DNA of 42,528 nt from a virus: positions 1-42,528 of the IMG/VR virus record IMGVR_UViG_3300028809_000029. One strand, written 5' to 3'. Numbering within the stretch: position 1 is the first letter of the stretch; each line of letters opens with the position of its first letter. Shown piece after piece: positions 855 through 28,847 of this stretch. Below the pieces are notes generated by a model, which saw only the letters and a program-made list of their open reading frames with translations, was not told where the DNA came from and ran no database searches. The position numbers and the translations under genes are program-made.

Positions 855-867
855 GGACGAGAAGTGA
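730..867 (+). CDS. Short basic helical protein overlapping its neighbours
   Basis: This 45-residue frame starts at ATG 730 behind a purine-rich AGGAGATGCGGG stretch. It overlaps the previous gene by 125 bases, and its TGA stop overlaps the GTG start of the methyltransferase gene by 4 bases, which suggests translational coupling. The product is an amphipathic, Arg/Leu-rich helix (ARSLLRLSRDLAYRIAP) with an acidic end. No family is recognised. Both overlapping frames read like protein, so I keep both, but this one is less secure. Confidence 0.5.
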   Translation: MNTQSNEPTLSLGARIRISLARSLLRLSRDLAYRIAPEIKGEDEK

Positions 868-1895
868 CGGCTTGGTACAACGAGAACAACCTCGCCGCGG
901 CCCACATCCTTCGCCAGCAAATAGAAGACGGCGTCATAGCGCCTGGCATCGTGGACACCAGATCAATCAAGGACGTGCAACCGGATGACCTTATCGGCTT
1001 CACTCAATGCCATTTCTTCGCTGGAGGCGGTCTCTGGTCCGTCGCAGCTCGACTTGCTGGCTGGCCTGACCACGAACCAATCTGGACCGGAAGCTGCCCC
1101 TGCCAGCCGTTCTCGGCGGCCGGTAAAGGAGCCGGAACAGATGATCCAAGGCATCTGTGGCCGGACCTACATCGCCTCACCCGTGCCAGACGGCCCCCTG
1201 TCCTCATGGGAGAGCAGGTTGCGGGAGCGGCTGGCTACGGTTGGTTCGACGGAGTCCGCGCTGATCTGGAGAACGAAGGTTTCGCCGCAAGGACGATCGA
1301 TTTCCCGGCTTGCAGTGTCGACGCGCCACACCAACGGAACCGGCAATACTGGTGCGCCCTCGATCTGGTCTACGCCGAGGGCGTCGGATGGGGAGAAGGG
1401 CGGCCCGAACCAGAGCTTCGGAGCTGGTGGCCAACCCCTGCCGGCGCAGATGCATCAGGCCGCATCCTATCATCCCACGCCTCTTTCTCTGTCGTTCAAG
1501 GACAGCCATCAGCCAGGGACAAACAGGACGCTGGAGAAGATGAAGGCGTACATGCCGACGCCGGTAGCCAGCCCCGACAACAAATCGCCAGAAGCGCATT
1601 TGGCTATGAAGGGACGCATGGGCGGCGGCCGCAAGGCAATCACGGACATCCAAGTCATGATGAAAGCCATCGCCGGAACGGAACCTACTGGTCAGACGCC
1701 GAATGGATCGAATGCCACGACGACAAAGCGCGGCGCGCCAAATCCGGTCTTCGCTTTCTGGTTGATGGGCTTCCCGGACGAGTGGATCTCTGGCGCGTTG
1801 GCGGCAATGCAATCGTACCGGAAGCCGCGAAAGAAGTGATCGCAGCATTCATCGATGTCTACGGGCTCCCGAGCCAATGGCGCGCCGCCGCCTAG
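864..1895 (+). CDS. Phage C5 cytosine DNA methyltransferase
   Basis: The 343-residue product should transfer a methyl group from S-adenosylmethionine to C5 of cytosine in DNA, a usual way for phages to escape restriction. Motif I (FFAGGG) is near residue 51, motif IV with the catalytic Cys near 80 (GSCPCQPFSAAGKG), the motif VI-like GEQV near 116, the motif VIII-like HQRNRQYW near 156, and motif X (GGNAIVP) near 313. As in the short phage branch of the family, motifs I and IV lie only about 20 residues apart. Residues 170-280 are variable in composition and are the part that most overlaps the nested gene. The GTG start at 864 follows GAGGA. Target sequence is unknown. Confidence 0.9.
   Translation: MTAWYNENNLAAAHILRQQIEDGVIAPGIVDTRSIKDVQPDDLIGFTQCHFFAGGGLWSVAARLAGWPDHEPIWTGSCPCQPFSAAGKGAGTDDPRHLWPDLHRLTRARRPPVLMGEQVAGAAGYGWFDGVRADLENEGFAARTIDFPACSVDAPHQRNRQYWCALDLVYAEGVGWGEGRPEPELRSWWPTPAGADASGRILSSHASFSVVQGQPSARDKQDAGEDEGVHADAGSQPRQQIARSAFGYEGTHGRRPQGNHGHPSHDESHRRNGTYWSDAEWIECHDDKARRAKSGLRFLVDGLPGRVDLWRVGGNAIVPEAAKEVIAAFIDVYGLPSQWRAAA
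985..1839 (+). CDS. Nested gene: PTP-repeat / WLMGFP-type phage protein
   Basis: This 284-residue frame lies wholly inside the methyltransferase gene, in the +1 frame. It carries features of a phage protein family I recognise from prophages. These are an ESRLRERLATVGSTE segment (75-90) followed by IWRTK, three repeats of a (P/S)T-P-x-x-x-D type (STPRASD near 129, HPTPLSLSFKD near 163, MPTPVASPD near 190), and a C-terminal NPVFAFWLMGFPDEW (253-267) followed by a basic tail. Function is unknown. Genes of this kind tend to accompany phage C5 methyltransferases, which suggests a linked role in modification. The start at 985 is the earliest reasonable one. Confidence 0.7.
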   Translation: MTLSASLNAISSLEAVSGPSQLDLLAGLTTNQSGPEAAPASRSRRPVKEPEQMIQGICGRTYIASPVPDGPLSSWESRLRERLATVGSTESALIWRTKVSPQGRSISRLAVSTRHTNGTGNTGAPSIWSTPRASDGEKGGPNQSFGAGGQPLPAQMHQAASYHPTPLSLSFKDSHQPGTNRTLEKMKAYMPTPVASPDNKSPEAHLAMKGRMGGGRKAITDIQVMMKAIAGTEPTGQTPNGSNATTTKRGAPNPVFAFWLMGFPDEWISGALAAMQSYRKPRKK

Positions 1896-2194: not shown

Positions 2195-2410
2195 ATGAGG
2201 ATGAAGACCCCGGATCAAATTTTGAACTGGATGGATCGAAAGATCTGGTCCGCCAACACATGGCTTGAAACGTTTGGCCGCGGCACGAAGAAGCAGCGCC
2301 CGGAGTTGGATATCGAGCATCGTGAGGAAGACATCGAGTGCTTTGCTGAGCTTCGCGGCGCCTATGTGAAAGCGCTGGAGCGCAGGCAATCTCAGGGAGG
2401 CGCAGCATGA
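2195..2410 (+). CDS. Small hypothetical protein
   Basis: This is a 71-residue charged protein. ATG 2195 and ATG 2201 are both in frame and preceded by purine-rich sequence (GAGG). The gene overlaps the next start by 4 bases (ATGA), typical of a translationally coupled phage operon. The sequence is helical and rich in Glu and Arg, with a Trp-rich first third (WMDRKIWSANTW). No family or function is recognised. Confidence 0.6.
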   Translation: MRMKTPDQILNWMDRKIWSANTWLETFGRGTKKQRPELDIEHREEDIECFAELRGAYVKALERRQSQGGAA

Positions 2411-2631
2411 CCCTCTCCACCACAGAGACAGCCAAGACGGACACCGCGCGGATCCTGAACCTTTGGCACGACGGTTTCGACACCTACGACATCGCCAGAA
2501 AGCTGAAGGTGCATGAATCCGTCGTCTATAACGCTCTCGCATCGATGGGCAGCCAGAAGACGGAATCATACCGATATTCACGGGAAGAAGCCAGAACCAG
2601 CTTTGAGAGCTGGGGAGGGTGGAACCGATGA
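2407..2631 (+). CDS. Small helix-turn-helix protein
   Basis: The 74-residue product contains a helix-turn-helix pattern at about residues 15-50: ARILNLWHDGFDTYDIARKL followed by VHESVVYNALAS. This resembles sigma-region-4 or resolvase-type DNA-binding motifs. It overlaps its upstream and downstream genes by 4 bases each. A regulatory or DNA-processing role is likely, but no target is visible. Confidence 0.65.
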   Translation: MTLSTTETAKTDTARILNLWHDGFDTYDIARKLKVHESVVYNALASMGSQKTESYRYSREEARTSFESWGGWNR

Positions 2632-2924
2632 GGAGAGCCGCCAAGCGCGATGCTGCTGAACCGGAGATCGTGTCCACGCTAATCCAATGCGGCTTCAGCG
2701 TCTACCGGCTCAATCAGCCAGTGGATTTGCTCGTCGGGCATCGGGGCAAGAATTTTCTCGTCGAGGTCAAGACCGGCCGCAAGGGCTACGGCAAGAGCCT
2801 CAACGAGAACCAGCATGAATTCAACGAGGGTTGGCGCGGTTCCAAGGTGGTGATGCTGCACAGTGCGCAGGACGCCATGGATTTCGCTGTCATGGTTTCA
2901 TCAGGAGAGTTCCGTGAGGGCTAA
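2628..2924 (+). CDS. Small PD-(D/E)XK-type nuclease (resolvase/VRR-NUC-like)
   Basis: The 98-residue product shows a short nuclease core. An N-terminal acidic helix (EPEIVSTLIQCGFSVYRL) is followed by PVDLLVG and LVEVKTG, which give the D...E-x-K arrangement of Holliday-junction resolvase-like and VRR-NUC enzymes, near residues 33-52. The remainder (NENQHEF, KVVMLHS) fits the fold. It probably cuts branched or nicked DNA in phage replication or recombination. ATG 2628 has GGAGGG upstream and overlaps the previous stop; an upstream GTG at 2619 is possible. Its last residues (AVMVSSGE) recur at the end of the next gene. Confidence 0.7.
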   Translation: MRRAAKRDAAEPEIVSTLIQCGFSVYRLNQPVDLLVGHRGKNFLVEVKTGRKGYGKSLNENQHEFNEGWRGSKVVMLHSAQDAMDFAVMVSSGEFREG

Positions 2925-3426
2925 TGATCCGGAAATTTGCCGCCGGTGGGCGTCTGATAATTTCAGCTACGACCCGTCAACCGGTGTGATCACCCATTCT
3001 TTCTCTAGGGCGTCTGTAAAGGCCGGTCAGGTAGCCGGAAGCGCTGAGAAAAACGGATACACAAGGATCAAGGTGAGGGGCACAAAAATCTTGGCCCATC
3101 GCTTTGCATGGTTCCTTCATTACGGTCGCTGGCCCGAAAACCAACTGGACCACATTAACCGTGACAGGTCCGACAACCGGCTTCTCAACCTCCGGGAGGT
3201 GAGTGCCGAAGGAAATGCCCACAATAAGGGCGTCCGAAAGAATAACCAGTCGGGCGTCTCTGGCGTCAGGTGGAGACCACATCTCAGCAAGTGGCAGGCG
3301 ACAATTTCACGGCGCGGGCGGCGTATCAGCTTGGGCCATTTTGCGAAAATAGAAGAGGCCGAATTGGCTAGGCGTGAGGCAGAGCGCGATTGGGCCGTGA
3401 TGGTTTCGAGCGGAGAAAAGGCATGA
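2914..3426 (+). CDS. HNH homing endonuclease with AP2-type DNA-binding domain
   Basis: The GTG at 2914 follows GGAG and gives 170 residues. An HNH core lies around residues 55-95 (AHRFAWFLHYGRWP, then LDHINRDRSDNRLLNLR). Asn-rich NKGVRKNNQSGVSGVRW leads into an AP2-like domain (WQATISRRGRRISLGHF). This is the standard layout of free-standing phage HNH endonucleases that spread by cutting cognate sites. It overlaps the preceding gene by 11 bases. Its C-terminus (WAVMVSSGE) copies that of the preceding gene, and the same bases supply the ribosome-binding site for the following gene. It therefore seems to have been inserted without breaking translation of its neighbours. Confidence 0.85.
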   Translation: MRANDPEICRRWASDNFSYDPSTGVITHSFSRASVKAGQVAGSAEKNGYTRIKVRGTKILAHRFAWFLHYGRWPENQLDHINRDRSDNRLLNLREVSAEGNAHNKGVRKNNQSGVSGVRWRPHLSKWQATISRRGRRISLGHFAKIEEAELARREAERDWAVMVSSGEKA

Positions 3427-26733: not shown

Positions 26734-27193
26734 TCGCCTGAAGAAAGGCGGCGCTGTTGCTGCTATGACAGTGGCGCTGGTCGGCGGCTTCGAAGGCCTG
26801 CGCCAGAACGCCTATCCAGATCCGGCCACCAAAGGCCCCCCGTGGACCGTCTGTTACGGAGAGACCAAAGGCGTCCAACCCGGTGATCACTATTCCGTCG
26901 CTCAATGCAAGGCCATGCTGGAGGATTCGCTTCAGGAATACGCGGCCGGCATCGAGCGCTGCGTCACGGTTCAACTGCCTGACAAGCGGTATGTGGCCCT
27001 CATCTCCTTCGCCTATAACGTCGGCACGAAAGCGGCCTGCAACTCCAGCGTCGTGAAGCTGATCAACGCTGGTGCGACCAAACAAGGCTGCGATGCCCTG
27101 CTCAAGTGGGACCGCGCGGCTGGAGTTCGGTTTCCTGGCTTGACGAGGAGAAGGGTTAAAGAGAGAGAGTTTTGCCTCGACGGAATAGGGTAG
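26720..27193 (+). CDS. SAR-type endolysin, GH24 lysozyme
   Basis: The 157-residue protein cleaves peptidoglycan. The N-terminus (KKGGAVAAMTVALVGG) is a weakly hydrophobic, Ala/Gly-rich signal-arrest-release segment, so secretion needs no holin pore. The catalytic Glu25 (GFEGLR) is followed eight residues later by Asp34, and WTVCYGET carries the Thr/Cys of the GH24 site. An insertion of about three residues (PATKGPP) lengthens the D-to-T loop compared with P21-type enzymes. Cys residues (C45 and others) may take part in disulfide switching. Its last 38 bases overlap an HNH gene on the other strand. Confidence 0.88.
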   Translation: MQKSNRLKKGGAVAAMTVALVGGFEGLRQNAYPDPATKGPPWTVCYGETKGVQPGDHYSVAQCKAMLEDSLQEYAAGIERCVTVQLPDKRYVALISFAYNVGTKAACNSSVVKLINAGATKQGCDALLKWDRAAGVRFPGLTRRRVKEREFCLDGIG

Positions 27194-27737
27194 GTTTCTC
27201 CGCCCACCTGTCCTCCGGCCAGCCGCTCCTTATCCTGTACTTTAGCGTCGTCCATGTCAGTCCGAGCTTTCTAGCTAATCCTCCAAGGTGATACGTTTCC
27301 CCCCGGTAGAGGACGATCACGTTGTTTTTCAGGTGAGAAGATTGCTGCCGAGGCGTTGCCCACACGCAGTTCTCCTTCGAATACCCAAGAGCGCCGTTGG
27401 TTCTATCAAGAGTCGTGCCTGCGGGCCTCTCCCCCATGTCGGACAGAAAGTTCTCAAAAGAATTCCACTCATCACACACAGTGATGCCGACTGCCCCATA
27501 CCGCGCATATTTTTTGGCGGCCTGATTTGTGCATCTCTGCAGCATCATGGCCCACGAATTGTACGTCTTGCTTTGACCCGTCTTCGTAGTGTGCCCGTGC
27601 TTTCTGCTCGTTGTCTTGGCGTTGCAAGATCGCGAGCAGAACCGCCCCCTACCGCGAGCAATCTGCGGCTCCGTCGCCTTAAAAGGCAGCCCGCAAGTCT
27701 GACAATGCACATCAATTCTAGGGATCCTGGCAGCCAT
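27156..27737 (-). CDS. HNH endonuclease inside the lysis cassette (first)
   Basis: The product is 193 residues from ATG 27737, which has GGAGGG upstream. It has an N-terminal Cys-pair zinc motif (CQTCGLPF and CSRSC, about 12-38). The HNH core pattern of phage homing enzymes follows: YNSWAMMLQRC, YGAVGITVCDEW, FLSDMGERP, LDRTNGALGYSKENCVWATP. A C-terminal DNA-binding tail includes GLARKLGLTWTTLKYRIRSG. It lies on the opposite strand between endolysin and spanin genes and overlaps the endolysin 3' end by 38 bases. It is probably a selfish homing gene. Confidence 0.85.
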   Translation of the reverse strand: MAARIPRIDVHCQTCGLPFKATEPQIARGRGRFCSRSCNAKTTSRKHGHTTKTGQSKTYNSWAMMLQRCTNQAAKKYARYGAVGITVCDEWNSFENFLSDMGERPAGTTLDRTNGALGYSKENCVWATPRQQSSHLKNNVIVLYRGETYHLGGLARKLGLTWTTLKYRIRSGWPEDRWAEKPTLFRRGKTLSL

Positions 27738-27819
27738 CAAACCCTCCAATCTTTACAAGAGGTTATACCATGATTCGTGATGGAAATAAAGCTGCCGGCA
27801 AGATATTTCTGGAGGGAGC

Positions 27820-28164: not shown

Positions 28165-28198
28165 CATCTTCGGGAAGAGCAAGGGATGCTGGGGTTAA
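27992..28198 (+). CDS. Outer-membrane spanin lipoprotein (Rz1-like)
   Basis: The product is 68 residues with a clear lipoprotein signal: MKKSPLLMLGLCALLSAC, lipobox LSAC with Cys18. The mature part (TTKPQSVCDGWMKLRAKP, then HNIFGKSKGCW) is typical of Rz1-like o-spanins in rhizobial phages. It starts inside the Rz-like gene in the +1 frame with GTGAAAGGA upstream and runs 34 bases past its end. Its stop overlaps the end of an opposite-strand HNH gene by 4 bases. Confidence 0.8.
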   Translation: MKKSPLLMLGLCALLSACQTTKPQSVCDGWMKLRAKPDTAVFLIQKDRSLANGIASHNIFGKSKGCWG

Positions 28199-28764
28199 AG
28201 GTCCGGCCAGAAGCGGCCGGTTCGAAGACCGGCGATGTGGCCTCTAGAAACTCCAAACATCTCGGCAAGTTCTCGCTGTTTCTTGTCTGAGCAAGCCCGA
28301 ATGAAGACCACATCGGCAGATGTAAGTTTGGCAGCCCCGCAACGCTCGCCCCTGTTGGACCTCCCGTGCATGAGCTTGTCTGCTTCATTCTGAGATTGGG
28401 TTTTCCACGAAAGATGACCTGGATTGCAGCAAGATCGCACTCCGCATGAATGAGCCGCTTGATGCCTCTTTGAGGGGGCCGCGCCTTTCGAAAGCGCGCA
28501 CATAAACCGATGCGCGTGCGTTTTCTTCCCGCCAACACTTATGGGCGCATAGCCTGTGTCGTCTGTCTGGAACGGGAATATGAGACAGTCGTCGCCGCAG
28601 TGCTGGCTATTCGATTTCAGCCATTCCAGCCGGTCACTTCCCCATGGCTCCCTAGTTGGGTCTCCATGGCGCATCATTCTCTGGTAGTGGACACCGCACA
28701 TGCCTTTACGGCCGCCGTTTACTCGATCCACAGTGGCAGAACATCCTTCAACTGAGCAAATCAT
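28195..28764 (-). CDS. HNH endonuclease flanking the lysis cassette (second)
   Basis: The 189-residue product starts at ATG 28764 (AAAGGATGG upstream). An N-terminal zinc knuckle (CSVEGCSATV, GMCGVHYQRMM RHG) leads to an HNH core (KTHAHRFMCALSKG, AAHSCGVRSCCNPGHLSW, NEADKLMHGR). The end is a sigma-like helix-turn-helix (AKLTSADVVFIRACSDKKQR, LAEMFGVSRGHIAGL). This layout is that of phage HNH homing endonucleases with a DNA-reading tail. It lies opposite to the late genes and ends 4 bases into the Rz1-like gene. Confidence 0.85.
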   Translation of the reverse strand: MICSVEGCSATVDRVNGGRKGMCGVHYQRMMRHGDPTREPWGSDRLEWLKSNSQHCGDDCLIFPFQTDDTGYAPISVGGKKTHAHRFMCALSKGAAPSKRHQAAHSCGVRSCCNPGHLSWKTQSQNEADKLMHGRSNRGERCGAAKLTSADVVFIRACSDKKQRELAEMFGVSRGHIAGLRTGRFWPDL

Positions 28765-28847
28765 ATCACCATCCTTTCTAGGGAGAATAGCAAAATGCGT
28801 GCACCATTTCATCAAATGACGCCAGATTTACACAGGAAATAGCATGC

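Follow-up and report, generated by a model that had tools for sequence, protein, structure and literature searches.

A second gene nested in the +1 frame of a phage C5-cytosine methyltransferase gene, and its possible role as the target-recognition polypeptide of the enzyme

Introduction

In the 42,528-base IMG/VR virus record IMGVR_UViG_3300028809_000029, the whole of which is called the window here, a phage cytosine methyltransferase gene is also open for 284 codons in its +1 frame, which raises the question of whether one stretch of DNA encodes two proteins and, if it does, what the second one is for. A preliminary description of the window had placed the methyltransferase frame (MT) at 864-1895 and the nested frame (NE) at 985-1839, and had inferred real dual coding by a functional, co-evolved pair of unknown purpose. 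Both frames are present at these positions. A lone frame of this length in one gene of 62% GC is only suggestive, and weak evidence by itself: for the window gene alone, ~3% of synonymous shuffles are free of stops.

The two frames and their start sites

The MT product matches PF00145 (8e-12) and phrog_363 (2.5e-60) in profile searches, and with motifs I, IV (PCQ), VI, VIII and X in order and a Rossmann catalytic fold it meets the criterion for a C5-cytosine DNA methyltransferase (Table 1). All five of the motifs previously claimed for it were found, motif I in a weak form (HFFAGGGLW) and the others as CPCQPFS, GEQVA, PHQRNR and GNAIVP. The family matched by NE is phrog_1008 (7e-23), which carries the label 'DNA methyltransferase'; no relative of NE was found in Pfam, NCBIfam, PADLOC or PDB. 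The features that had been read from it, ESRLRERLATVGSTE and a WLMGFPDEW end, are there, as are its three (P/S)TPxxxD repeats, although these are looser than first written (WSTPRASD, HPTPLSLSFKD and MPTPVASPD).

Table 1. Positions of features of the MT and NE frames in the window
Feature	Position	Strand	Remarks
MT, C5-cytosine methyltransferase large polypeptide	864..1895	+	343 aa, GTG start
NE, nested ORF in the +1 frame of MT	985..1839	+	284 aa, ATG; phrog_1008
AAGGA, Shine-Dalgarno-like	969..973	+	11 nt upstream of ATG 985; from sequence
TAAAGGAG + 9 nt + ATG 1141	1124..1143	+	possible second, internal NE start (M53, 232 aa)
MT motif I (CHFFAGGGLW)	1008..1037	+	weak form HFFAGGGLW
MT motif IV, catalytic Cys (GSCPCQPFS)	1089..1115	+	P79, C80 and Q81 invariant
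MT motif VI (GEQVA)	1209..1223	+	G116, E117 and V119 invariant
MT motif VIII (APHQRNRQYW)	1323..1352	+	P155, R158 and R160 invariant
MT variable region	1371..1688	+	disordered linker in MT frame, module array in NE frame
MT conserved segment (WSDAEWIECHDDKARR) preceding motif X	1689..1736	+	W276, W281, D286, K288 and R290 invariant or nearly so
MT motif X (GGNAIVPEAA)	1800..1829	+	G314, N315 and A316 invariant
NE motif IX-like segment (NPVFAFWLMGFPDEW)	1741..1785	+	not in MT frame
NE module 1 (WSTPRASDGEKGGPNQSFGAGGQPLPAQMHQAASY)	1366..1470	+	33 residues identical in Sphingomonas locus
NE module 2 (HPTPLSLSFKDSHQPGTNRTLEKMKAY)	1471..1551	+	from module comparison
NE module 3 (MPTPVASPDNKSPEAHLAMKGRMGGGRKAITDIQVMMKA)	1552..1668	+	72% identical in Lysobacter locus, MT catalytic domain 51%

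The GTG of MT overlaps the TGA of an upstream ORF. For NE, a Shine-Dalgarno sequence is found more often than in synonymous shuffles at aligned start -176 (0.55 vs 0.20) and at aligned start -164, which is the NE start of the window (0.52 vs 0.37), and enrichment over the shuffles is absent at some other aligned start positions. The ATG at 1141 was considered as the main NE start and rejected, as the strong Shine-Dalgarno sequence before it is merely dictated by GKG in the MT protein (frequency 0.84, vs 0.86 forced); ATG 985 is therefore kept, with 1141 as a possible second start. Just downstream, at 1145-1155 in the window and in relatives, the Arg of the MT sequence RHLW is often encoded by AGG in these GC-rich loci, and a Gln is thereby kept in NE, one frame fixing the codon choice of the other.

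Evidence for dual coding

To avoid circularity, we collected 50 non-redundant viral loci through MT alone, using patterns in motifs I and IV. The +1 frame is free of stops across the overlap in 48 of these loci; 4.0 would be expected from synonymous codon shuffles, in which the MT protein is unchanged. None of the 50 has an open +2 frame, and the stops in that frame are at expectation; the three antisense frames are open in 3, 0 and 0, which is near expectation. In canonical C5 methyltransferases encoded by the same bacterial genomes the +1 frame was open in 0/23 and stop counts equalled expectation. Homologous methyltransferases with the nested frame full of stops would have refuted the original inference of real dual coding, and this is not what the loci found through MT contain. 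An antisense ORF at 1204-1848 (214 aa) was rejected as a gene, being unconserved and in an antisense frame that behaves as expected by chance.

A search for homologues, which had been proposed as a check, found 122 annotated phage records with NE and 384 with MT. Of 262 loci, 261 have NE overlapping an MT homologue in the +1 register and one, which has an insertion, does not (L072, described below); in none of the 262 is NE seen without MT. Since the loci are related and each collection scan keeps its best 80, these counts are not independent events. The nested frame is also open in gene 58 of phage N15, epsilon15, BASEL Bas72, a Krischvirus, the Paenibacillus phages Diva and Rani, and gp75 of Mycobacterium phage Royals2015, with no more than 0.7% of synonymous shuffles equally open in each, and phrog_1008 matched all six nested products scanned, namely those of Diva (its internal gene, 1e-73), Royals2015, JKSyngboy, Bas72 (8e-53), N15 and L072. 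The bacterial loci come from Proteobacteria, Planctomycetota, Acidobacteria, Bacteroidetes and Verrucomicrobia, among others. Nested dual coding across the family is thus far beyond chance, and that MT and NE are a true case of it is near certain.

Some annotators have noticed the overlap, and both ORFs are entered in some records. The 'Mte8-like protein' of K1 phages, the 'g49 internal gene' of a Paenibacillus phage and phrog_1008 are the nested protein itself, but the 'DNA methyltransferase' label of phrog_1008 gives NE no distinct role, and no function or explanation is recorded there; we found no description or explanation of the nested family in the literature searched.

Selection along the gene

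The two frames are not constrained equally along their length. We compared substitution rates at the three MT codon positions (MT1/2/3) in 73 disjoint pairs of relatives, with bootstrapping, and also ran an all-pairs version. Before the overlap the rates are 0.133/0.106/0.410 and in the catalytic part 0.143/0.104/0.300. Beyond motif VIII, in the variable region, the order reverses to 0.299/0.128/0.099, with MT1 above MT3 in 2000 of 2000 bootstraps, so that the fastest site is MT position 1, which is the third (wobble) position of NE. In the last part of the gene both frames are constrained (0.148/0.075/0.190). With an MT1 rate of 0.30 against 0.10 for MT3, the variable region evolves as NE codons, and the dominant frame switches along the gene, from MT codons in the catalytic domain to NE codons in the variable region. 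Purifying selection on NE codons is thereby demonstrated. The preliminary description had noted that the NE repeats lie in the variable part of MT, as would be expected if one frame constrained the other; they do, and the constraint runs from NE to MT, as substitution rates follow NE codons.

An AlphaFold model of MT agrees with this switch in having an ordered catalytic domain and a disordered linker. Residues 1-175, the catalytic domain, are mostly predicted with high confidence, pLDDT is below 50 over most of 192-273, where the NE modules lie, and the end is partly ordered. The best PDB matches of the model are M.HaeIII and M.HhaI, and these and its other matches cover the catalytic domain only. 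The alignments used for structure prediction were built without the loci from phage records.

Division of the conserved motifs

A pattern search of frame 0 found no motif IX in the MT of any of 159 family members, and MT alone is thus not a complete canonical enzyme. The pattern NPxxxxWLMGFPxxW is present in the +1 frame of 42/50 of the loci found through MT, and in frame 0 or +2 of 0/50; the canonical form of motif IX (RECxRLQGFP-like) was found by pattern in frame 0 of 17 of the 23 canonical controls. In a profile alignment the end of NE falls on canonical motif IX, although the support is modest (E 0.002, probability 14%). Homology between the two may be suspected on these grounds, but with a pattern so short and a single weak profile alignment the case for it is weak.

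A structural model of NE is of little help here, being poor overall (pLDDT 58, pTM 0.25), in which residues 73-86 and 254-277 form helices and 93-111 a hairpin; a fold search with it against solved structures gave no match, and neither did a sequence search against PDB. A profile hint of likeness between NE 70-112 and the motif VIII region (E 0.014) was not taken as significant.

Exchange of modules between phages

Between a conserved N-terminal part and the motif IX-like end, NE carries 0-7 units, mostly 2-4, of ~33 aa with the pattern [W/Y/M/H]xT[P/A]xxx[D/S]...L, and recurrent families of these modules occupy different positions in different arrays. Module boundaries were set by a regular expression and are rough, some differences between arrays being artefacts of segmentation (L046/L054, for example), and for this reason the claim of exchange rests on alignment identities. 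The first module of the window is identical over 33 residues to a Sphingomonas module, although the catalytic domains of the two loci share only 72%; with a Lysobacter module its identity is 90%, where the catalytic domains share 51%. The converse is seen in the pair L141/L176, in which the MT catalytic domain and the NE motif IX segment are each 98% identical and the NE variable region 29%. Among pairs with 80-90% catalytic identity the median identity of the NE variable region is 26%, and cassettes have been exchanged between phages with catalytic domains up to 98-100% identical.

As in a multispecific methyltransferase, interchangeable units stand in tandem from motif VIII to motif IX. In such an enzyme, however, the units belong to the catalytic chain, and here the modules sit in the nested frame. 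Exchange of this kind is as would be expected of target-recognition parts, although the reading of DNA by the modules is inferred from sequence comparison. The 'unknown purpose' of the pair can thus be narrowed, if not settled: the inference of a functional, co-evolved pair is supported, NE has a motif IX-like segment that MT lacks, and its exchangeable modules lie at the target-recognition position of C5 methyltransferases.

A proposed enzyme of two polypeptides

Given that the parts of the enzyme are divided between the two frames, the most economical interpretation is that two polypeptides make up one enzyme, and we consider it probable that MT and NE are the two chains of a single phage C5-cytosine methyltransferase, encoded in two frames of the same DNA. 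Motif X and the catalytic domain that binds S-adenosylmethionine would come from MT. NE, initiating at its own ATG within MT, would provide motif IX and, as the target-recognition part, the tandem exchangeable modules of ~33 residues, and the two, once assembled into an enzyme, would shield the phage genome against restriction by the host. The assignment of NE as a target-recognition and motif IX subunit, like that of M.EcoHK31I, is inferred by analogy, with no expression or activity data behind it; equally inferred are the binding of NE to MT, the reading of DNA by the modules, the need for the NE product in methylation and the anti-restriction purpose. As for origins, and as inference only, an ancestral region for target recognition and motif IX may have come into the +1 frame through two compensating frame changes, and that frame could then have been extended upstream, overprinting the catalytic domain.

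We are evenly divided over a more specific proposal, in which the nested frame serves as an interchangeable cartridge for specificity and phages alter the sequences they methylate by exchanging or adding ~33-residue NE modules. Under that proposal, the DNA would have to remain open in two frames with MT's own reading there an unselected linker, and a target-recognition region would have been frameshifted into a separate overlapping subunit in phages of several bacterial phyla.

As an instance of same-strand dual coding in double-stranded DNA phages the locus is large and clear, with the selected frame switching along the gene, and the nested gene is carried by the model phages N15, epsilon15 and BASEL Bas72. 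If the two-polypeptide reading is true, hundreds of phage and prophage methyltransferase genes are half-annotated, with the specificity polypeptide possibly hidden by single-ORF calls, and cloning or predicting MT alone would yield an inactive or misread enzyme. The module content of NE should then predict the methylated motif.

Comparison with known systems

M.EcoHK31I recognises YGGCCR, and M.EaeI is said to be alike. The ORF for the small subunit of M.EcoHK31I reportedly lies inside that for the large one in another frame (a report attributed to Lee, Kam and Shaw in 1995), and NE, wholly within MT and in another frame, would share this feature. Should that report of nesting be correct, what is added here is the breadth of the arrangement, the evidence of selection and the exchangeable module array. 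The large polypeptide of M.EcoHK31I has motifs I-VIII and X and the small one motif IX only (PMC3404938). The present pair is alike in that the motif IX pattern is on the small polypeptide only, with the caveat that homology to canonical motif IX is weak, and differs in that M.EcoHK31I has one known specificity, with its target-recognition domain predicted on the large subunit, whereas the exchangeable modules, numbering 0-7 in an array that varies, are here on NE. M.AquI is a C5 methyltransferase naturally split in the variable region, with motifs IX and X on the small subunit (PMC3404938). It resembles what we propose for MT and NE in being one enzyme made from two polypeptides, but its small subunit has IX and X together, whereas NE has a motif IX-like segment alone. 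The Bacillus phages SPR, phi3T and SPbeta encode multispecific C5 methyltransferases with tandem interchangeable target-recognition units of ~40 residues. Tandem interchangeable units in an orphan phage methyltransferase are common to these enzymes and the present family; there, however, units and catalytic domain form one chain in one frame. Finally, out-of-frame HNH insertions of the ShiLan type in phage methylases are mobile endonucleases with their own start and stop (PMC11855218). They too use a second frame within a phage methylase gene, but as a mobile insertion, whereas NE belongs to the methylase locus in the family as a whole; the NE of the window had no HNH match in profile searches and is not an insertion of this type, and among the nested products scanned only that of L072 had such a match.

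Alternative explanations

Dual coding is silent on function, and NE could be a real nested gene without being a methyltransferase subunit, acting instead as an anti-restriction protein, a regulator of MT or a DNA-binding accessory factor. The lack of any relative in Pfam, NCBIfam, PADLOC or PDB leaves room for this, as does the N-terminal third of NE (the first ~110 residues), which is unexplained. We nevertheless think it improbable: motif IX is missing from MT exactly where NE has its motif IX-like segment, NE is never found without MT, and modules are swapped between motifs VIII and IX, which is the place for target recognition.

There is also only a small chance, in our estimation, that the M.EcoHK31I arrangement applies exactly, with motif IX on NE as a structural completion, DNA recognition on MT and the modules serving as a spacer or in some other capacity. 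The target-recognition domain of M.EcoHK31I is predicted on the large subunit (PMC3404938), and MT does retain a conserved WSDAEWIxCHDGKxRR (residues 276-291) ahead of motif X. Yet the MT chain is predicted to be disordered in the variable region, substitutions there track NE codons and not those of MT, and one would expect specificity parts, rather than a spacer, to be exchanged as cassettes.

A programmed +1 frameshift that fuses the MT catalytic domain to the NE variable region in one transframe protein would account for the movement of selection from MT to NE codons near motif VIII, where a frameshift site would be expected to give it. Such a product would lose motif X, however, and the annotators of K1ind2, PhiXhv-5 and Paenibacillus phages call a separate ORF. 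Moreover, the +1 frame is open well upstream of motif VIII: from MT codon 45 to motif VIII it is open in 49 of the 50 loci (13.9 expected), and 49 as well have an ATG no later than MT codon 60 from which the frame stays open to motif VIII (9.7 expected). This combination of upstream ATG and open frame argues that NE has a start of its own and is no mere frameshift extension, and we regard a programmed frameshift as very improbable.

That the nested frame is an untranslated by-product of high GC or of MT codon usage, conceivable for a single gene of 62% GC in which chance can leave a long second frame open, is virtually ruled out, being refuted at family level by the synonymous shuffles, the canonical and six-frame controls and the codon-position reversal, and by the presence of the nested frame at 48-50% GC also (Diva, KMB43).

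Variants and neighbouring features

The division of labour between MT and NE appears to vary within the family, as Gordonia phage JKSyngboy (L264; MT 2333-3397, nested ORF 2589-3122) has motif IX (LSPVFVEWMMGLPRGW) in the MT frame and a shorter nested ORF that retains the module part only (phrog_1008, 5e-24). In L072 (IMGVR_UViG_3300010885_042296) an insertion of ~550 bases at ~1954-2500 lies inside the dual-coding gene with both frames open; in the NE frame, and continuous with NE, it encodes an HNH/endonuclease VII-like sequence (phrog_3322, 5e-28; phrog_1035, 2.5e-26), comparable to the ShiLan insertion (PMC11855218). Decayed copies also occur. MT residues 36-167 (motifs I-VIII) are missing from those at L008 375-1016 and L009 2892-3533, in which both frames remain open downstream of the gap, and ~MT 105-259 is missing in both frames from that at L010 2730-3413.

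Elsewhere in the window, three ORFs look by eye like HNH homing endonucleases (2863-3426 on the + strand, which has an AP2-like tail, and 27156-27749 and 28195-28815 on the - strand). Two small proteins at opposite ends of the phage (1921-2163, +, and 35765-36343, -) have a KPLEW-type start in common and are, again by eye, possible paralogues.
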